Notes under the pieces: model-generated
The model's input: the letters and a program-made list of their open reading frames with translations, nothing else
Database searches by the model: none
What the model was told of the DNA's origin: nothing
Position numbers and translations under genes: made by a program
Part shown: piece after piece, positions 3,696-36,018 of the stretch
Position numbering within the stretch: the stretch's first letter is position 1
Layout: each line of letters starts with the position of its first letter
Virus record (IMG/VR): IMGVR_UViG_3300015202_000028
Coordinates: 1-37,047 of that record
DNA: 37,047 bases
Direction: 5' to 3' (one strand)
Origin: a virus

Positions 3696-3800
3696 TTGAA
3701 CCTCCCCACACCTAAAGGCGGGGGATTCCTGAAGGGGCTCACGCACACCTCTCGAGGCTCGTTCCGAGCCCGACAATTAGAGTGTTGATCGCAGCGTTTA
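3695..3800 (-). ncRNA. Candidate omega (right-end) guide RNA of TnpB
   Basis: In IS200/IS605 elements the right end overlapping the 3' part of tnpB yields an RNA whose last part copies the flanking DNA and guides TnpB. Here the minus strand from about 3800 holds a GC-rich hairpin (GGGCTCGGAACGAGCC), then the CCCC/GGGG hairpin and the terminal GGTTCAAC at 3695. The guide would start with CGATCACCGACAAACAG. Limits are estimated and expression is not shown. Confidence 0.4.
3704..3733 (+). repeat. 30-bp subterminal direct repeat of the IS (copy at 3704-3733 and 5232-5261)
   Basis: The two copies are identical over 30 bp, beginning CCCCACACC and ending GATTCCTGAA. Each folds into a short hairpin with a CCCC/GGGG stem. 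The flanking bases differ on both sides. Confidence 0.85.
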
Positions 3801-4782
3801 TATCGCGATCATGTTGGACTCCACAGTCCGAACACTCCCATTGTCTTACCTGTAAGCCTGAAATACCTGTAGGTCCATTTTTGGACAAACAGGCATGACA
3901 AGTCATAGTGGAATATTTAGAATCAACTTCGATGTATTTCCTATTGCTAATACTGCATTTATAGGACAACATTTGCCTTAGTTGATAGTGGCCAGCTTCT
4001 GCCACTGATTTGCCGTATTTCTTTGCTATACCTTTTATGTTATCTTTAGAAAACACAATAGTATCATATTCTTGTACAAGTTTGTGAGAAAGTTTGTGAT
4101 TTTCATCTTTACGTCTATTTTTAATTCTTTCTTGTAAACGAGCAGTTAATTTCTTGTCCTTACCTCTTTGCGCTTGAGCTAATCTATTTTGCCTTTTTTT
4201 AAAATGCTTTATAGTGTCTATTTTTACGCCATTTGAAAGTGTTAAGTTAGTTTTATATCCGGGATCGATTCCAACTTTACCTTCCCCGTTTGGTAAGATT
4301 ACATTCGACTTGGAATCTATAAACAAACAAAGATACCAACCTGAAGCTCTTTTAACTATACGTCCGCACTTAATTTTTCCTTGAGGGATGTCTTGCTTAT
4401 GATACCGAATTAAACCCAGCATTGGAATTCTGACACGGCCTTCTGTAGGGTATTTTATAGAGTCAGGAAAAGGAATTGATGCTAATTTATTTCTAACACC
4501 CTTAAATCTAGGTTTTTTTCCAATTTTTTTGAAGCAACGTTGCCAAGCTGTATGTCCCATTTTTAAAATAGCTTGTAAAGTATGTGATGGAATTTCCAAT
4601 TTTTTTGAGTGATTGGCTAATAGATTAACAAAATCAAATTCTTTGTGGTAAATTCCATGTTTAGCATCATACCCTATTTTAGATATACCCCAGTTCCATA
4701 CGCGAGTAAGCGATAACAACCACGAATTAAGTTTAACTTCCTGTTTTTTGTTGATGCGTAGTTTAATTTGCGTCTGTATCAT
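3739..4782 (-). CDS. tnpB: TnpB (IS605 OrfB) RNA-guided nuclease-like protein
   Basis: A 347-residue TnpB: N-terminal wedge/recognition region, RuvC-I with GIDPGYK (Asp173), a long basic helix, RuvC-II, a four-cysteine zinc knuckle (Cys295, 298, 317, 320) and RuvC-III with HDRDINAA (Asp327). The RuvC-II segment reads TIVFSKDNIKG at 241-251, where most TnpB proteins have a catalytic Glu (pattern vvEdLnvkgM); Ser245 sits there. Glu262 in the following helix might replace it, as catalytic rearrangements are known among TnpB/Cas12 relatives, or the nuclease may be inactive. The gene overlaps tnpA by 4 bp (ATGA). TnpB normally cuts the empty donor site to help the element persist. Confidence 0.93.
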   Translation of the reverse strand: MIQTQIKLRINKKQEVKLNSWLLSLTRVWNWGISKIGYDAKHGIYHKEFDFVNLLANHSKKLEIPSHTLQAILKMGHTAWQRCFKKIGKKPRFKGVRNKLASIPFPDSIKYPTEGRVRIPMLGLIRYHKQDIPQGKIKCGRIVKRASGWYLCLFIDSKSNVILPNGEGKVGIDPGYKTNLTLSNGVKIDTIKHFKKRQNRLAQAQRGKDKKLTARLQERIKNRRKDENHKLSHKLVQEYDTIVFSKDNIKGIAKKYGKSVAEAGHYQLRQMLSYKCSISNRKYIEVDSKYSTMTCHACLSKNGPTGISGLQVRQWECSDCGVQHDRDINAAINTLIVGLGTSLERCA

Positions 4783-5174
4783 ATTTTTTGCTGATCTTCT
4801 ACGTATTTTTTAATGACATCTAAAGAAGCCCCACCAACAGTGGACACAAAATACGAGTTAGTCCAAAGACTCGGTAAACGTGATTTGACGGATTTGTAAG
4901 TTTTTCTTAATGTATGAGAACTTAAACATTTAATTTCTTTAATTAATCTATGTATTCCGTATTGCGGATCTACTTCTACAAGTAAATGGACATGATCGAG
5001 CATTAATTCTAATGCTATAATATCACATTTTCTTTTAGAACAAACGTCATGAATAATTAATTTTAAATGAGCTTGTATTGGATCATCCAGCACTTTTCTT
5101 CTGTATTTTGTACACCACACCACATGATATTTACACGAATAAACTATATTATTGTTAGATTTAAATTTAGGCAT
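4779..5174 (-). CDS. tnpA: TnpA, Y1 HUH transposase of IS200/IS605
   Basis: This 131-residue protein has the usual length of IS200 TnpA. It begins with the typical YSCKYHVVWCTKYRRKVL segment, carries the metal-binding HVH at 61-63 (LDHVHLLVEV) and the nucleophilic Tyr124 in the C-terminal helix (DVIKKYVEDQQ). All key residues are present, so it could be active. It moves the element as single-stranded DNA by cutting near the hairpins at the ends. No strong ribosome site is seen ahead of ATG 5174. Confidence 0.93.
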   Translation of the reverse strand: MPKFKSNNNIVYSCKYHVVWCTKYRRKVLDDPIQAHLKLIIHDVCSKRKCDIIALELMLDHVHLLVEVDPQYGIHRLIKEIKCLSSHTLRKTYKSVKSRLPSLWTNSYFVSTVGGASLDVIKKYVEDQQKI

Positions 5175-5724: not shown

Positions 5725-5964
5725 ATGAATTTCATGGCTAAGAAAAAAAACAAGGATTTAGAAGAGATCTATTACCCAGTTCCAGCTAATTTTTCCATTG
5801 AATCGAAAAGCAAACCAACGATGAATAATGATGTTATCAGGCAAATCATCACAGGTGCGGTAAAGGGAGCGTACAAACTCAAAAACCCATCGAATTATGA
5901 TTTGAAATATGGACATGCCAAAGGCAAGCCTAAAGCCATAGCAACAGAAGAACAAATGAAATAG
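5725..5964 (+). CDS. Small hypothetical protein
   Basis: A 79-residue protein after AAAGGAGG (5714-5721). The ATG at 5725 is rather close to that site and the in-frame ATG at 5734 rather far, so the start is uncertain by three codons. It has a basic N-terminus (MAKKKNKDLEE), a tyrosine-proline motif EEIYYPVP, and ends about one turn after GHAKGKPKAI. The stop TAG shares its last base with the GTG start of the next gene, so the two are probably translated together. No family recognised. Confidence 0.5.
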   Translation: MNFMAKKKNKDLEEIYYPVPANFSIESKSKPTMNNDVIRQIITGAVKGAYKLKNPSNYDLKYGHAKGKPKAIATEEQMK

Positions 5965-6278
5965 TGCAGCAACTTGCTGCATTAATTCCGTGGGTTGAAA
6001 TTACGAAACAGCCTGTTTCGCAAATTCCTTGGGGACATAACATTCTTATCCTGCAAAAGATCTCAAGCCAAAAAGAGCGACTCTGGTATGCTGAAAAGAC
6101 TATCGAAAATGGTTGGAGTCGGAGCCTGTTAACGGTTTGGATTGAAAACAACCTCCACAATCGAGAAGGCAAAGCAATCACTAACTTTAAAGACACGTTG
6201 CCACTGCCCCAGTCGGATCTAGCCCAACAAATAACAAAAGACCCTTATATATTCGACTTTTTGACAATGGATGAATAA
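5964..6278 (+). CDS. DUF1016 (YhcG-like) N-terminal domain, stand-alone and truncated
   Basis: A 104-residue product (GTG start) with the well-known DUF1016 N-terminal signature: QIPWGHNILILQKI, ERLWYAEKTIENGWSRS, LLTVWIE, GKAITNFKDTLPLPQSDLAQ and DPYIFDFLT. Full YhcG proteins are about 300-350 residues and continue into a PD-(D/E)XK nuclease domain. Here the frame ends directly after the N-terminal domain with DFLTMDE, so the nuclease half is missing. An unusual insert after LAALIPW repeats the IPW motif. It may be a remnant captured from a bacterium, or a domain working alone as an inhibitor or DNA-binding unit. Confidence 0.75.
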   Translation: MQQLAALIPWVEITKQPVSQIPWGHNILILQKISSQKERLWYAEKTIENGWSRSLLTVWIENNLHNREGKAITNFKDTLPLPQSDLAQQITKDPYIFDFLTMDE

Positions 6279-6299: not shown

Positions 6300-6644
6300 A
6301 TGCATTTTGTAAAAAAAATAAACTATATTGATGCTAATAAGATAAGCTTAACTTTTGACGATAAGAAAACAAAAGTTGTTGATATCGAACCTTATCTTGA
6401 TAAGGGAATTTTTTTGGCTTTAAGAGATCCCGATTATTTTAATCTAGTAAAAGTAAAATACGATACCATTGTATGGCCTAATAAAGCTGATTTTTGCCCG
6501 GATGTATTGTATGAAATTGGAAAAGAAATTCAAGAGAAAGAAACGCCGATAAAATCTTTACCGAAACGCCGTAAACAAAATACCGTTAGAAGTGTTCGAG
6601 TTAAAGCAAATGCAATGACGAAAAACCGCTCAAAGAAAGTTTAA
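6300..6644 (+). CDS. DUF2442-domain protein
   Basis: A 114-residue protein beginning at ATG 6300 after AAAGGATTAG. Residues about 20-75 carry the DUF2442 pattern: VVDIEPYLDKGIFLALRDP, then YDTIVWPNKADFCPDVLYE. The C-terminal 40 residues are strongly basic (LPKRRKQNTVRSVRVKANA) and could bind nucleic acid. In bacteria DUF2442 proteins often pair with DUF4160 in toxin-antitoxin-like pairs; no DUF4160 partner is seen. Together with the DUF1016 piece it looks like bacterial cargo near the insertion element. Confidence 0.75.
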   Translation: MHFVKKINYIDANKISLTFDDKKTKVVDIEPYLDKGIFLALRDPDYFNLVKVKYDTIVWPNKADFCPDVLYEIGKEIQEKETPIKSLPKRRKQNTVRSVRVKANAMTKNRSKKV

Positions 6645-7049: not shown

Positions 7050-7173
7050 CGCCACCTCGTTTGGCGCATAGTGTGATTTACTCAATACAAAAAAACAAGT
7101 AAATAAAAAACTATAGATGTGAAAACAGACATCGCATAACATGTAGCACTGAATGTTTTAAAAAGAGGTGGGC

Positions 7174-7905
7174 ATGTGGGTCGGCTTAATGGAATGTCGC
7201 TCTTCTCGGGAATTGGAGGGATCGACCTTGCTCTCAAAGACTGGGTGCGGACATGTATTTATTGCGAATTGGACACATATTGTCAAAGTGTGCTTTTGTC
7301 CAGAATGCAAGATGGAAATCTTGATAGAGCACCAATATGGAATGACATCAAAACCCTTAGAACAGGAGAGCCGGAACTCACCGAGGATGTCGATATCATC
7401 TTCGGCGGGTTCCCTTGACCTTGCCAGGATATCAGTCTTGCAGGACTTGGAAAAGGATTGGCAGGACTCCGAAGCTCGTTATGTTATGACATCTTTAGAA
7501 TCGCTAATGAAATACGACCAAAATTCATCTTCTTGGAAAATGTCCCAGCTATTACATGCAGAGGAGGCATTGAAGTGGTCACAGAAATTACCAAAATGGG
7601 GTATGATTGTAGATGGATTACTATCACAGCTTCTTCCCTGGGCGCGTTACATAAAAGGGAACGATGGTTTCTCCTTGCCAACTCCAAAGGCGAGCGATTC
7701 AAAGAGGAACGACAGCCCATGCGAGAGAAAGAGAGACAACCCGGATCTAACAACGAAATTAAACATGATTCACAATACCAAAGGAAAGAAAGTCCATCCC
7801 CATTTTATAGAGTGGATGATGACGTATCCTTTAGGGTGGACCGAGCTAAAGCCTTGGGAAATGCAGTGGTTCCTCAGCAAGCAAAAAAAGCGTTTAAAAT
7901 CTTAA
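7174..7905 (+). CDS. Overlapping +1-frame protein laid over the methyltransferase gene
   Basis: This 243-codon frame starts at ATG 7174, two bases before the methyltransferase GTG 7176 and using the same GAGGTG site, and stays open to 7905. Its second half carries motifs I associate with a phage protein family often found beside cytosine methyltransferases: NSSSWKMSQ, LPKWGMI, SLPTPKASDSKRND, and HPHFIEWMMTYPLGWTELKP. The same DNA in the other frame encodes unmistakable methyltransferase motifs VI-X, so both frames appear to be meaningful. The first 80 residues show no family features, and the real start may be internal. Function of the family is unknown to me. This is either true dual coding or a conserved shadow. 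Confidence 0.5.
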   Translation: MWVGLMECRSSRELEGSTLLSKTGCGHVFIANWTHIVKVCFCPECKMEILIEHQYGMTSKPLEQESRNSPRMSISSSAGSLDLARISVLQDLEKDWQDSEARYVMTSLESLMKYDQNSSSWKMSQLLHAEEALKWSQKLPKWGMIVDGLLSQLLPWARYIKGNDGFSLPTPKASDSKRNDSPCERKRDNPDLTTKLNMIHNTKGKKVHPHFIEWMMTYPLGWTELKPWEMQWFLSKQKKRLKS

Positions 7906-7919
7906 TGGGAATAATATGA
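7176..7919 (+). pseudogene. C5-cytosine DNA methyltransferase with an in-frame TGA before the catalytic motif
   Basis: The frame begins at GTG 7176 behind GAGGTG. Motif I is SLFSGIGGIDLAL, motif IV reads GGFP-stop-PCQDIS, motif VI is FLENVPAI, motif VIII is HKRERWFLLA and motif X is KALGNAVVPQQA. The stop at 7416-7418 falls immediately before the catalytic Pro-Cys. Normal enzymes have GGFPCQDIS; here CCTTGACCTTGC replaces CCTTGC, which is a 6-bp duplication or insertion that brings the TGA. All motifs on both sides are otherwise intact, so the damage is recent, or the stop is read through, or the assembly has an error. The enzyme would methylate cytosine at C5 to evade restriction. It overlaps the ParB-like gene by 4 bp. 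Confidence 0.8.
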
Positions 7920-8380
7920 TTCAATGGCATCTAGAAGTTCATCCAATAAATACTTTGAAAAGTCACCCGAAAAATCCTAGACAGATTAGCAAAGAACAGT
8001 TCCAGCACTTGAGCGATTTGATTGCTAAGTTTGGATTTATCGACCGGCCGATAATTAATTGCGACAAAACAATCATCTGTGGACACCAACGTATTCGCGT
8101 TCTAAAGAAAATGAAGGCTAAAACGGTTGAGTGCTGGGTTCCTGATGAGCAGTTATCCGATGAAGATGTTGAAGAGCTTTTGATCCGGCATAATTTGAAT
8201 CAGGGAAATTGGAGTTACGATATTTTAGGAAATTTGTTTGAACCATTAGATTTATTGAAATATGGTTTTACAGAAGATCAGTTGCTAGGTTCATATAAAG
8301 AAGATCAAGAGGAATCCAAAGAAGAAAACAGCAGCAGCAAAAAAAAGAAAGAATGCCCATCTTGTGGGTTTGAGTTTTGA
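7916..8380 (+). CDS. ParB/sulfiredoxin-fold N-terminal-domain protein
   Basis: A 154-residue protein. The ParB-type signature is clear: SHPKNPRQISKEQFQHLSDL, FGFIDRPIINCDKTIICGHQRI, then a helical stretch ELLIRHNLNQGNWSYDILG. The tail is a Ser/Lys linker and a CPSCGFEF zinc-ribbon half. Phage proteins with this domain commonly sit beside DNA methyltransferases just ahead of the terminase genes, as here. The GHQR segment is the nucleotide-binding box of the fold. It starts with ATG 7916 inside the methyltransferase stop (ATGA). A role in DNA modification, nicking or packaging is likely but not shown; it lacks the full ParB DNA-binding and dimer domains needed for partition. Confidence 0.8.
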   Translation: MIQWHLEVHPINTLKSHPKNPRQISKEQFQHLSDLIAKFGFIDRPIINCDKTIICGHQRIRVLKKMKAKTVECWVPDEQLSDEDVEELLIRHNLNQGNWSYDILGNLFEPLDLLKYGFTEDQLLGSYKEDQEESKEENSSSKKKKECPSCGFEF

Positions 8381-9736: not shown

Positions 9737-10135
9737 ATGGCAAGACCGCTAAAAGCAATCAATTGGGATTTAGTAGAATTATATGCTAAATCAGGATGTA
9801 CACAAAAAGAAATCGCAGATAGTTTACATATCCACAGAGAAACATTAGCTGATAGAGTAAAAGAAAAATACGGAATGGATTACTCGACCTTCTCGACTTA
9901 TTTTTATAGTGAGGGAGATATTTTATTAAAAGCACAGCAATTTCAGAAAGCTATGAAGGGTTATTGGCAAGCTTTGATGTGGTTAGGTAAAGTAAGATTA
10001 GGACAAAAAGAACCCGAAAGCGTCATGAATTTAGCAGCTAATCAGACTCAATTAGATCAATCGCATCGCATCATGGAATTAGAACATCAACTTTCAGAGT
10101 TAAAAGCTAATGCCAACCAGCCCAAAACAGAATAA
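9737..10135 (+). CDS. terS: Small terminase subunit (TerS)
   Basis: A 132-residue protein. I place the start at ATG 9737 (MARPLKAINWDLVELYAKSG) because it matches small terminase N-termini; the frame is open back to 9689 but that leader is not conserved in type, and neither start has a good ribosome site. Residues 5-45 are the DNA-binding helix-turn-helix (GCTQKEIADSLHIHRETLADRV). The centre has KAQQFQKAMKGYWQALMWLGKVRLGQKEPE, the usual oligomerisation core, and the tail is a short coiled coil. It recognises the packaging site and feeds DNA to TerL, whose gene overlaps it by 26 bp. A TATAAT lies at 9672-9677 without a good -35 box. Confidence 0.8.
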   Translation: MARPLKAINWDLVELYAKSGCTQKEIADSLHIHRETLADRVKEKYGMDYSTFSTYFYSEGDILLKAQQFQKAMKGYWQALMWLGKVRLGQKEPESVMNLAANQTQLDQSHRIMELEHQLSELKANANQPKTE

Positions 10136-11819
10136 ATCATTTTGTGAAGCTACTCATAGATTCAATATCTGGGTGGGAGCCGTATCATCTGGAAAGACAT
10201 ATTCAAGCATCGAAAGACTTATCTACGATCTAAAGAATGGCCCTCGCAATGAAGATGGTGGTGGCGATGCTATGATTATTGGCGTTAACCGTACATCAAT
10301 ACAACGTAATTTGCTCACACACTTATACAGAAGGCTAGGTTTCCCATGTCCGACAGAGAAAGCCCAAATGTCCCGTTTGTATGGTCGCGATGTGTGGTTT
10401 GTGGGTGCCCCCGATGTCTCGGCCGTCTCGACGATCCAAGGGTCGACTCTCGCTCTTGCTTATGTGGACGAAGCTACAAATCTACCAGAACCATTTTGGA
10501 AGATGCTGGAATCTCGTTTGAGAGTCCCTGGAGCAAAACTATTAGCGACCTGCAACCCTGAAGGTCCAGCCCATTGGCTTAAGAAAGACTATATTGATAA
10601 ACCGGGCTTAGACCTTGCTTGCTGGAACTTCAATCTTGAAGATAACCCCATACTTGATGATAAGTATAAACAGCAGCTGAAAGCCTCGTATACAGGTATG
10701 TGGTACAACAGATATATATTAGGAGAATGGGCACTTGCTCATGGGGCTATTTATGATAACTATGACAAAGACAACGAATATGAAAATCCATTCCCTGCCC
10801 CTAACTATTATGTCGTTGGTGTCGATTATGGGACTACCAATGCAACAGCTGCGGTACTTTGTGCCGTTACACCCAATAAGTGGCCACAGATCAGAGTCGA
10901 AGCGGAATATTACTATGATTCAACTAAGAAAGGACGTAGCAAAACCGATCAAGAACTTGTTAGAGATATCAAAGATTTTATTGGTTATAAGAACGTATCT
11001 GCTATTTATGTGGACCCTGCAGCCGCGTCCTTCAAAATTGCTCTTAGACAATCTGAACTCCCGGTATTGGATGCAAATAACGATGTTTTACTTGGAATTA
11101 AAATATGCTCAAAGTTTATTGGAGGGAAAAATATAGTCATTCAAAAAGGATGCACTGTCTTAAGAGAACACTTACAATCATATTCTTGGGATTCTAAGGC
11201 AGCCGATCGAGGCGAAGATAAGCCAGTGAAGAAGAACGATCATATCTGTGTCACAGGTGATACAAAAGTTATGCTTGGTTGTGGAAATGTTGAAATAAAA
11301 CATCTTGTCGGTGATCTTAAAGGTTTAGTAGTAGCCTATAAACATGAATATGGATTTCTGCTTGCTCCTTTATTTCTAGGAAAAAAAACTGGAGAGAATA
11401 AAAAGATTCTTAAACTTACTCTTGAAAATGGTAAAACCTTGAAAGCAACACCCGATCATAAAGTAATGACAAAACGCGGATTCATTGAGATACAATTTCT
11501 ACTGACTAGCGATGAGGTTTTGTGTTATGAAAAACAAGGTGTTGTAGCAGGTCATGCGGGTGTATACTCCGCAGTCAAAAGCATTGAAGAATGCGAACCT
11601 GAAGATGTTTACTGTATTTCTGTTCCTTCAACCGGAAACTTTGTTGCTAATGGAATGGTGATAGCGAATTGCGACGCATTAAGATATGCCATTGTTTCAG
11701 CCTTTCCCCGAGGAGAATTCAGTCATCCCGATGAAAATATTTCTTATGATCAATTACGAAAACAAGTTTTTGGATCAAATGATATGTACGATCAATTTAA
11801 TTCAAGTTTAGGACTATGA
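10110..11819 (+). CDS. terL: Large terminase subunit (TerL) interrupted by a mini-intein
   Basis: The 569-residue precursor holds a 428-residue terminase and a 141-residue intein. The ATPase half has Walker A GAVSSGKT (23-30) and Walker B ALAYVDEATN; the RNase H-like nuclease has Asp239 (VGVDYGTT), Asp302 (YVDPAA) and Asp522 (CDALRY). Residues 380-520 are the intein, cutting the usual DHxxDALRY nuclease motif between Ile379 and Cys521. Without splicing the nuclease site cannot form, so packaging should depend on it. After splicing the motif reads DHICDALRYA. TerL drives DNA into the procapsid and cuts it. It overlaps terS by 26 bp. Confidence 0.92.
   Translation: MPTSPKQNKSFCEATHRFNIWVGAVSSGKTYSSIERLIYDLKNGPRNEDGGGDAMIIGVNRTSIQRNLLTHLYRRLGFPCPTEKAQMSRLYGRDVWFVGAPDVSAVSTIQGSTLALAYVDEATNLPEPFWKMLESRLRVPGAKLLATCNPEGPAHWLKKDYIDKPGLDLACWNFNLEDNPILDDKYKQQLKASYTGMWYNRYILGEWALAHGAIYDNYDKDNEYENPFPAPNYYVVGVDYGTTNATAAVLCAVTPNKWPQIRVEAEYYYDSTKKGRSKTDQELVRDIKDFIGYKNVSAIYVDPAAASFKIALRQSELPVLDANNDVLLGIKICSKFIGGKNIVIQKGCTVLREHLQSYSWDSKAADRGEDKPVKKNDHICVTGDTKVMLGCGNVEIKHLVGDLKGLVVAYKHEYGFLLAPLFLGKKTGENKKILKLTLENGKTLKATPDHKVMTKRGFIEIQFLLTSDEVLCYEKQGVVAGHAGVYSAVKSIEECEPEDVYCISVPSTGNFVANGMVIANCDALRYAIVSAFPRGEFSHPDENISYDQLRKQVFGSNDMYDQFNSSLGL
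11247..11669 (+). other. Mini-intein (141 residues) inside TerL
   Basis: Splicing block A is CVTGDTKVML with Cys1; block B is GKTLKATPDHKVMT with the conserved Thr and His; block F is VYCISVPSTGNFVANG; block G is MVIAN followed by extein Cys+1. Between B and F there is no LAGLIDADG or HNH domain, and the length of 141 residues equals minimal inteins. The penultimate residue is Ala instead of the usual His, a variation seen in some active inteins. The insertion point is the catalytic third-aspartate motif of the nuclease, a typical highly conserved intein site. Confidence 0.92.
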
Positions 11820-34413: not shown

Positions 34414-35265
34414 TTAACTTGTAGTTATTCTCCAACTATTTATCGAGCCTTTTCTATAATTATCAAGATCTACATTTATTAATTCTGGAATCCTAGCATA
34501 TTCAACATTGCCTTTTCTATTAACCAGGCACAACGAAATACCGGCCCCCTTCGTATTTGACTCTCCACTTAAAAACACTAGCTGTTTTCGGATCTCCTCT
34601 TCTTCCTTTTCTAATTCTTTTATAGAATTTGTTAGGGACTTCCATTTCAAAGCACATTGTTGCCATAAATCATCATTCCTTTCAATATAGTCTCCTTCAT
34701 TAAGTTCAGGAGGTGTTTTGTTAATTAGACACTGATAAAATTTCTTTTCTTCGATAATCATTTTTTGTATGTATTCTTCATTTCTTAAAACTTCAACAAC
34801 AACACCATCTGCACCATCAAAGCTAAAATAATAAGCTGACTCTACATCACAAACATACATTTGATGTTGTAGTTGAGGGTAATAATGATCTGGAACCTTA
34901 CCTAAAAGAGCAATTGCATGGTCTTTAGATCCCGGACATTTTATTTCAACAATATGATTGCCACAATCGCTAATTCCATCTAATGAAGCCATAGCCCAAT
35001 CATTAATTACGACTTTTGGACTAACCTTTAGACCTGTTTTAATTTCAAATAAATCTCTTGCTATTGGTTCAAGATCAATACCTCTTTGCATTGCATCGTT
35101 TTTAAAGGTATTATTTTCCTCTGAAATCTTTTCATTATATAGCTGAAACCTTGTTTTCCAATGAGAAGCACCTAAAATCACAGCAGCATCAGTTGCAGTA
35201 ATTTTTGTTTTACGTAAGGCTAACCATTCAAGTGTGCCTTGCTCAATATCTAAACATGCGCCCAT
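34414..35265 (-). CDS. YqaJ-type viral recombinase (lambda exonuclease fold)
   Basis: A 283-residue protein; ATG 35265 follows AGGAGG. Motifs of the YqaJ/exonuclease family are complete: ITATDAAVILGAS, RGIDLEPIARDLFE, SLDG with Asp96, VEIKCPG with Glu107 and Lys109, and YYPQLQHQMYV. The last third is helical (LTNSIKELEKEEEEIRKQLV). It degrades one strand of linear DNA 5'-3' to give the single strand loaded by the Bet protein. Its ribosome site lies inside the end of the HNH gene, with a 16-bp overlap, so the HNH gene has settled tightly in this operon. Confidence 0.88.
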   Translation of the reverse strand: MGACLDIEQGTLEWLALRKTKITATDAAVILGASHWKTRFQLYNEKISEENNTFKNDAMQRGIDLEPIARDLFEIKTGLKVSPKVVINDWAMASLDGISDCGNHIVEIKCPGSKDHAIALLGKVPDHYYPQLQHQMYVCDVESAYYFSFDGADGVVVEVLRNEEYIQKMIIEEKKFYQCLINKTPPELNEGDYIERNDDLWQQCALKWKSLTNSIKELEKEEEEIRKQLVFLSGESNTKGAGISLCLVNRKGNVEYARIPELINVDLDNYRKGSINSWRITTS

Positions 35266-35840
35266 CTTTCCCTCCTAATAATCCTGCGAATGGTTTCTGG
35301 ATTCACTTGATAAATTTTTGCAATTTGTAAAAAAGTTACTTTTCCAGGAACATACATTGATCTAATTTCTTTAATTTGATTTTCGTTAAAAATCGATCCA
35401 TTTGCGGTTTCCCCTTTTAGAATTTTTGCAGGGATTTTTTTTCTTATAATGTCCTGAATGGCTCCTTGAGAAACGGAATATTTTTTTGCAATATTCCGTT
35501 GAGTTTCTCCTGAAAGATATGAGTTTATTATTTCTTCGTGAAATTCTTCTTTTATTTTTGTTTGTCCGTGAGAATTTCCATGGACATGTCTTTTTTTGTT
35601 TTTAGAATCTTGATAGTTGTCTTTGTGAGTTCCTAAAAATAAATGTTCTGGATTCACACATTTTCTATTGTCACACGAATGACAAACAAGAATTGCATTT
35701 GGAATGTTACCTTTATGTATTATCCATGAATACCTATGAGCAAAAAAAGTTTTATAGTTTGAGGAATATCTTCCATATCCATCGGGATTAACATATCCTT
35801 TCCAAATCCAACAGGAATTTGTTTTTTCAATTTTTGACAT
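35250..35840 (-). CDS. Free-standing HNH homing endonuclease
   Basis: A 196-residue protein; ATG 35840 (after GGAAAAATTT) is preferred, though ATG 35855 is possible. It opens with the zinc-type HNH_3 domain: CWIWKGYVNPDGYGRY, FAHRYSWIIHKGNIP, and LVCHSCDNRKCVNPEHLFLG with catalytic His pair and metal cysteines. Two helix-turn-helix units follow (GETQRNIAKKYSVSQGAIQD and TFLQIAKIYQVNPETIRRII) for DNA binding. It parts the bet operon between a small gene and the exonuclease gene, the usual habit of phage homing endonucleases, and overlaps both neighbours. Confidence 0.88.
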   Translation of the reverse strand: MSKIEKTNSCWIWKGYVNPDGYGRYSSNYKTFFAHRYSWIIHKGNIPNAILVCHSCDNRKCVNPEHLFLGTHKDNYQDSKNKKRHVHGNSHGQTKIKEEFHEEIINSYLSGETQRNIAKKYSVSQGAIQDIIRKKIPAKILKGETANGSIFNENQIKEIRSMYVPGKVTFLQIAKIYQVNPETIRRIIRRERWAHV

Positions 35841-36018
35841 AAATTTTTCCAGCATGATCTATTCTTTTTTTTAGATAATCTATTGTTTCAAATGACTGAG
35901 AAAGCTTCTGTGCTAAGATATTCATGACAAACAAATGCTTGTCATGAATATTAGGGACTTCGTCTAGCCATTCTGAGGCGTTTTCTTGAACTTCTCTAAT
36001 AATGTCTTCTGCAGTCAT
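35827..36018 (-). CDS. Small hypothetical protein in the recombination operon
   Basis: A 63-residue helical acidic protein (MTAEDIIREVQENASEWLDE, then HLFVMNILAQKLSQSFETID). It overlaps the bet stop by 4 bp (ATGA), so it was an original operon member. Its 3' end overlaps the HNH start, which could mean that the HNH insertion replaced some of its tail. Function unknown. Confidence 0.6.
   Translation of the reverse strand: MTAEDIIREVQENASEWLDEVPNIHDKHLFVMNILAQKLSQSFETIDYLKKRIDHAGKIYVKN

Follow-up and report, generated by a model that had tools for sequence, protein, structure and literature searches.

The small subunit of the split DNA methyltransferase M.EcoHK31I is encoded out of frame inside the large one. 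In M.EcoHK31I (YGGCCR), the large subunit carries motifs I to VIII and X, with a recognition domain predicted in the same subunit, and the small subunit carries motif IX (PMC3404938). M.AquI is split after motif VIII, and its second subunit holds the distal variable region together with motifs IX and X (PMC3404938).

Programmed translational bypass has been described in T4 gene 60 and in one yeast mitochondrial lineage (PMC5009743). In gene 60, the take-off codon is followed by a stop, a 5' stem-loop adjoins this site, and the insert lies in a conserved phage gene; the HNH homing endonuclease MobA invaded the host gene beside the bypass (PMC5009743, PMC2988022). Synthetic "stop-hops" in E. coli reporters, built from a sense codon, a stop, and a landing codon, allow nine nucleotides to be translated into one amino acid, and a 2016 review listed natural in-frame stop hopping as unknown (PMC5009743). 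HNH homing endonucleases are also found within phage methylase genes, as in ShiLan/Pacc40, where the HNH lies in another frame and the methylase is without a stop (PMC11855218).

The window analyzed here is the whole 37,047-nucleotide stretch of the viral record IMGVR_UViG_3300015202_000028. It holds a locus with likenesses to both kinds of system: a C5-methyltransferase frame (alpha, frame 0) that is interrupted within a catalytic motif and overlapped by a second open frame (beta, frame +1).

Organization of the locus

The features of the locus are as follows.

7176..7415, plus strand: alpha N-terminal stretch, from motif I (LFSGIGG) to the GGFP of motif IV; PF00145, E = 4.9e-7
GTG 7176 or ATG 7194, plus strand: alpha start
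7189..7905, plus strand: beta, in the +1 frame; probable target-recognition/motif IX subunit; phrog_1008, E = 5.5e-17; supported by a profile test
Conserved ATG 7189, open upstream to GTG 7168, plus strand: limits of the beta frame
7362..7415, plus strand: 54 nt identical to allele L120, which bears an HNH; the two diverge sharply upstream, the signature of a conversion tract
7373..7413, plus strand: predicted 16-bp hairpin in the mRNA (pairs 7373-7379/7407-7413 and 7381-7389/7397-7405); the 3' arm is the GG-F-P coding sequence
7416..7421, plus strand: inserted hexamer TGA CCT, an in-frame alpha stop and one more codon, which separate the Pro of motif IV from its catalytic Cys
7422..7919, plus strand: alpha C-terminal stretch, with CQDIS and motifs VI, VIII, and X; PF00145, E = 3.8e-20 (7422-7916)
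7916..8380, plus strand: ParB_N-like ORF overlapping the alpha stop; PF02195, E = 3.4e-4, below the PF02195 cut-off

An initial annotation read frame 0 as a methyltransferase, and the C5-methyltransferase (PF00145) motifs are indeed present in the order I, IV (PCQ), VI (ENV), VIII, and X. The frame is not uninterrupted, a point that this annotation missed: an in-frame TGA at 7416 to 7418 splits it into two open stretches, 7176 to 7415 and 7422 to 7919, each with its own PF00145 match. The sequence at the break, GGC GGG TTC CCT TGA CCT TGC CAG (GFP*PCQDIS), places the stop within motif IV, and the codon that follows the insert (7422) encodes the catalytic Cys, which aligns to M.HhaI residue 81. 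This overlooked stop is a more surprising feature than the overlap itself.

An alpha/beta unit that is 99% identical, and that has the same TGA, is present in contig IMGVR_3300011249_000002. The DNA upstream of about position 7160 is unrelated between the window and this contig. Because a nearly identical unit lies next to unrelated DNA in the two contigs, the unit appears to move between contigs as a block. An ORF whose translation is similar to the ParB_N-like ORF lies directly 3' of alpha in another locus, L025.

Frame +1 as a coding sequence

The initial annotation had also noticed that frame +1 is long and open and carries SSSWKMSQ, LPKWGM, LPTPKASD, and FIEWMMTYPLGWTEL. All four are present, in a frame of 245 codons that runs from GTG 7168 to the stop at 7903-7905. 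It had further proposed that the two frames start two bases apart (ATGTG) behind one ribosome site, and GTG 7176 (frame 0) and ATG 7174 (frame +1) do share one ribosome-site-like sequence, but the start conserved in relatives of beta is an ATG over the alpha "N-G" codons, found here at 7189. Most beta ORFs begin at such an ATG, made by an alpha Asn AAT codon and the next G; the Asn codon that forms it is AAT in 26 of 30 cases (26:4), versus 128:120 elsewhere in these genes.

The product of frame +1 is detected by tblastn in 103 phage records, and in the ten loci examined, including isolated phages, a C5-methyltransferase lies one frame away beneath beta. First described as uncharacterized, this product belongs to the phrog_1008 "DNA methyltransferase" family (E = 5.5e-17). 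Searches of Pfam and NCBIfam with beta gave no match, nor did a PDB sequence search with the beta of locus L119, and an AlphaFold model of beta alone, built from 22 relatives, had a pLDDT of 56, too poor for a fold search. Gene callers annotate one frame or the other depending on the record (beta only in L005 and L011), and the annotation of phage Shelly reads "internal gene." Overlapping alpha/beta methyltransferases are widespread in phages, so that one subunit is often annotated and the other missed.

A frame that lies over a conserved gene could be a noncoding shadow, with motifs forced by the alpha sequence. We therefore compared frame +1 with expectations obtained by permuting synonymous codons in 50 loci such that alpha was unchanged. 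Across about 50 phage loci, the +1 frame contains 72 stops versus 279 expected with alpha preserved, a depletion of about fourfold, whereas the +2 control frame of the same loci contains 582 versus 573 expected. On a beta profile built from isolated phages only, the beta of the window scores 119 bits, compared with 43 +/- 12 bits for 200 alpha-preserving re-codings (z = 6.4), and z exceeds 4 in all 22 loci tested. The 43 bits that the re-codings keep indicate that part of the likeness is forced, but the best of them reaches only 88 bits, the stops are depleted in +1 and not in the control, and the beta start codon is conserved. This was the refutation named by the initial annotation for its overlapping gene pair; run on the profile and on stop counts, it left the overlap standing, with frame +1 homologues kept beyond the constraint of frame 0. 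At the level of sequence statistics the shadow reading is already refuted, and we regard it as highly improbable.

Beta as the motif IX subunit

The C-terminal consensus of beta, LNPxFVEWLMGYPxGWTxL, has the position and pattern of motif IX and is preceded by LPTPxASD. In L119 and L051, the beta frame continues through motif X (RVxRLKAIGNGQVP), and alpha stops after motif VIII. The beta of L119 matches phrog_1008 over residues 47 to 321 of 329, and its residues 245 to 313 match the C terminus of an ordinary C5-methyltransferase family, phrog_363. Motif IX was assigned by its pattern and by these phrog_1008 and phrog_363 matches. Since the L119 chain runs through motif X and matches the C terminus of phrog_363, beta is almost certainly the target-recognition/motif IX subunit. 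The locus thus almost certainly encodes one C5-cytosine methyltransferase as two overlapping polypeptides, alpha (motifs I to VIII and X) and beta, which would be expected to form a complex.

This architecture is of the kind known from M.EcoHK31I and M.AquI. As in M.EcoHK31I, the catalytic subunit in the window has motifs I to VIII and X and motif IX resides in a second polypeptide, a likeness known from sequence; the second subunit is likewise encoded in an overlapping frame, under its own constraint. Unlike M.EcoHK31I, the unit is in a phage and no restriction partner was noticed, the LPTPxASD recognition region is in beta as well, and alpha is interrupted by a hairpin and stop. The layout of L051 and L119, with motif X in the second subunit, resembles that of M.AquI, whereas motif X of the window is in alpha (frame 0) rather than beta and the overlap spans most of alpha. 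Both layouts therefore occur within the phage alpha/beta family.

A stop-containing insert in motif IV

Among 2.9 million viral contigs, 33 matched the pattern GGNTTYCC-N7-TGYCARGAYATH, which set no condition on the inserted bases. Eleven of these were not methyltransferases, and the 22 methyltransferase contigs held 19 distinct alleles, the family of the window included. The first inserted codon is a stop in all 19 of these six-nucleotide alleles, with TGA, TAA, and TAG all used, and no six-nucleotide insert made of sense codons was found in true methyltransferases among the 2.9 million contigs. The second inserted codon is CCT, CCA, CCC, CTG, CTT, TCA, TTA, or ACA (the last in L120 and L122); it fits YYN in 17 of the 19 and encodes Pro in 8. 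In the window, it is CCU and matches the take-off codon, also CCU. Inserts of 7, 9, and 15 nt in L050, L058, and L014, which came from stop-requiring patterns, bring the stop alleles examined to 22; that of L014 differs from the insert of the window but likewise contains a stop and lies at the same junction between codons. In all 22 the stop lies directly 3' of the take-off codon, a count that includes the three found by requiring a stop.

The insert is absent from 111 intact relatives, and the share of loci that bear it is low (1 of 31 loci with the alpha query, and 2 of 78). A narrower pattern, inserted codon plus CCN, gave six matches in 85k bacterial genomes, none of them methyltransferases, and no DNA match with the insert was found in isolated phages for three hairpin types. 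Duplication of CCN-TGY as the origin of the hexamer was rejected, because a stop always comes first in the insert and the codon after it is Pro in some alleles only; exact Pro-to-Pro landing was likewise rejected as a general rule.

When one gene of a metagenome contig has a single in-frame stop, an error of sequencing or assembly may be to blame. We consider this vanishingly improbable here, as the same allele occurs in the second contig with a different upstream flank and 21 other alleles, in other contigs, have stops at the same codon junction, each with a hairpin.

Alpha shows few signs of decay behind the stop. Intact alpha sequences agree at 21 positions (conservation of at least 95%), and 20 stop alleles together have 4 changes there; L048, a decayed gene, is the sole exception to an undecayed downstream frame. 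Three alleles, L070, L121, and L123, are 66 to 75% identical downstream of the stop with a dN/dS of about 0.2 to 0.3. An open beta frame is absent from all three, and the stops are not the same (TGA, TAA, and TAA). The nearest intact sequences found in phage and plasmid collections are less than 60% identical to them. Together, these features suggest that the stop in these three may be ancestral and maintained.

A covarying hairpin adjoining the stop

In the window, positions 7346 to 7415 fold with a minimum free energy of -27.5 kcal/mol (z = -3.64 versus dinucleotide shuffles). The 70 nt before the stop have a mean z of -3.7 in the 22 stop alleles, compared with 0.04 at 111 intact ones. Every stop allele (22 of 22) has a hairpin of 10 to 18 bp that ends 1 to 2 nt 5' of the stop, with the GG-F-P coding sequence as its 3' arm. 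Its stability exceeds that of nearly all synonymous re-codings of the same peptide; the weakest case is L132, for which 40 of 300 re-codings are equally stable. This stop allele lies on a GC-rich contig, comes from a different methyltransferase lineage, and has an open +1 frame containing WVEWLMGFPLGWT.

The outer seven pairs of the stem, compared across 11 distinct pairs of arms, show 98.7% pairing, with 8 cells changed on both sides. The covariation score is 0.509 versus 0.309 for shuffles, with none of 500 shuffles reaching 0.509, in an alignment whose arms were entered by hand from the folds and in which a fixed AAAA spacer replaces the inner stem and loop. Synonymous third-base changes of the Gly and Phe codons are mirrored by the 5' arm (C-G, G-C, and U-A; G-C and A-U). 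In a 5-Mb scan of 4,616 stop codons with open frames on either side, 19 had a hairpin of this kind, and the majority of the 19 were at the methyltransferase site described here. Taken together, the hairpin appears clearly to be under selection.

The structures, which come from RNA folding and so favor mRNA, contain 45 G-U pairs versus 7 A.C mismatches, and in 17 of 22 alleles the sense strand folds more stably. On these two grounds, the hairpin probably forms in mRNA rather than in DNA; a DNA cruciform is less likely, given the same RNA-derived ratio.

Such a hairpin and stop could be a functional RNA of another kind, acting in readthrough, in termination-reinitiation, or in the control of message stability or processing, since selection on the hairpin is clear and its position alone leaves the mechanism unfixed. 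Readthrough, however, would leave two extra residues inside motif IV, and it could not bring the 7-nt insert of L050 back into frame. For termination-reinitiation, there is no in-frame start codon at the Cys, an intrinsic terminator would lack a U-run 3' of the hairpin, and Rfam gave no convincing match in four loci. We consider an RNA function of these kinds quite unlikely.

Association with HNH homing endonucleases

In nine stop alleles, an HTH-HNH ORF lies inside alpha, upstream of motif IV, shares the alpha frame, and runs to the inserted stop. This ORF has signals of its own, namely TTGACA...TATAAT-like sequences and a ribosome site, AGGAG. An HNH profile matched stop loci and none of 41 intact loci. 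At L119, an HNH relative of the cassette (78-489) is found directly upstream of alpha, not inside it. There is no HNH gene beside the insert of the window; at a distance, an HNH_3 ORF with helix-turn-helix repeats (35253-35855, minus strand) weakly matches the stop-allele HNH profile. ShiLan/Pacc40 also have an HNH homing endonuclease within a phage methylase gene, whereas in the related alleles described here the HNH shares the reading frame of alpha and terminates at the hairpin and stop.

The tract of the window that is identical to L120 (7362 to 7415) has a sharp left edge, and past 7415 the likeness between the two weakens beyond about 45 nt. For the sequence 3' of the stop, the nearest relative of the window is the intact locus L018 (73%, 100/98 support). 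Stop alleles are scattered among intact ones in the tree, which does not support a single ancestral stop clade. The L120-identical tract and the scattered tree would be expected from gene conversion around a cut made by a homing endonuclease.

These observations could also mean that the hexamer is the tail of a selfish HNH homing cassette, with the HNH frame ending at the stop and alpha inactivated on invasion. Stop-only alleles such as that of the window would then be partial conversion products, resistant but with methyltransferase activity lost. The promoter-like signals of the HNH ORF, its end at the inserted stop in 9 of 9 HNH alleles, the profile matches to stop loci and to none of 41 intact loci, the sharp-edged identity to L120, and the scatter in the tree all favor this reading. 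It leaves unexplained a covarying mRNA hairpin that abuts the stop in HNH-free alleles as well, alpha frames that are undecayed on both sides of the stop in nearly all alleles, and the fact that alpha is in frame with the HNH across three different junctions. We regard it as unlikely.

A possible minimal translational bypass

We favor instead a translational bypass in which the hairpin with its GGFP-coding 3' arm, the last Pro codon, the stop, one further codon, and the catalytic Cys codon would constitute a mobile RNA element. The ribosome would stall when tRNA-Pro occupies the P site and the stop has entered the A site, and it would slide 6 nt forward while the hairpin, which can refold only as the ribosome advances, re-forms behind it. 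The tRNA-Pro would then re-pair on the inserted YYN codon (CCU in the window), with G-U wobbles allowed, and translation would resume at the Cys to give a normal GGFP-CQDIS. The YYN preference of the inserted codon fits such re-pairing. The element would spread by gene conversion and, in related phages, would be linked to the HNH homing endonuclease cassette.

That the bypass is functional is close to an even call, tilting slightly in its favor. Since stop alleles are scattered, many lineages may have acquired the insert recently; for this reason, intact downstream frames need not mean function, and low dN/dS could predate the insertion. The landing codon is Pro in only 8 of 19 alleles, and the ACA of L120 and L122 is unable to pair with tRNA-Pro at all three positions. 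L048 is decayed, and hopping in synthetic constructs is usually inefficient. To the complete account, a split overlapping enzyme with a mobile hairpin and stop whose most likely role is a minimal bypass ("stop-hop"), we give slightly better than even credence. A broader reading, which we see as evenly poised, is that these alleles form a natural class of minimal mobile bypass elements, with a hop of about 6 nt in the catalytic motif of phage DNA methyltransferases. Conversion would spread such elements, their linked HNH would have its target destroyed by the insert, and in the window the element would sit inside a gene overprinted by its partner subunit.

Like T4 gene 60, the stop alleles have a stop right after the take-off codon and an adjoining 5' stem-loop (22 of 22), the insert is likewise in a conserved phage gene, and an HNH homing endonuclease is nearby in related alleles. 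They differ from it in the length of the gap (6 nt, or 7, 9, and 15 nt in three alleles, versus 50), in take-off and landing codons that are often mismatched, and in that the arrangement recurs in many different phages. The order of sense codon, stop, and landing codon is the same as in synthetic stop-hops, but those are constructs. The 22 covarying-hairpin alleles would give a compact natural series for testing both ribosome hopping and the ways in which selfish inserts stay harmless in essential motifs.

Other features of the window

The terminase large subunit ORF (10110-11819, plus strand) has, following its terminase domain, an intein splicing domain (PF14890, E = 4.6e-12). A DUF1016 N-terminal domain fragment (5964-6278) adjoins a DUF2442 ORF (6300-6644). 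On the minus strand, a transposase gene (3739-4782; phrog_506, E = 3e-75) and an overlapping small ORF (4779-5174) likely represent an insertion sequence in the phage.
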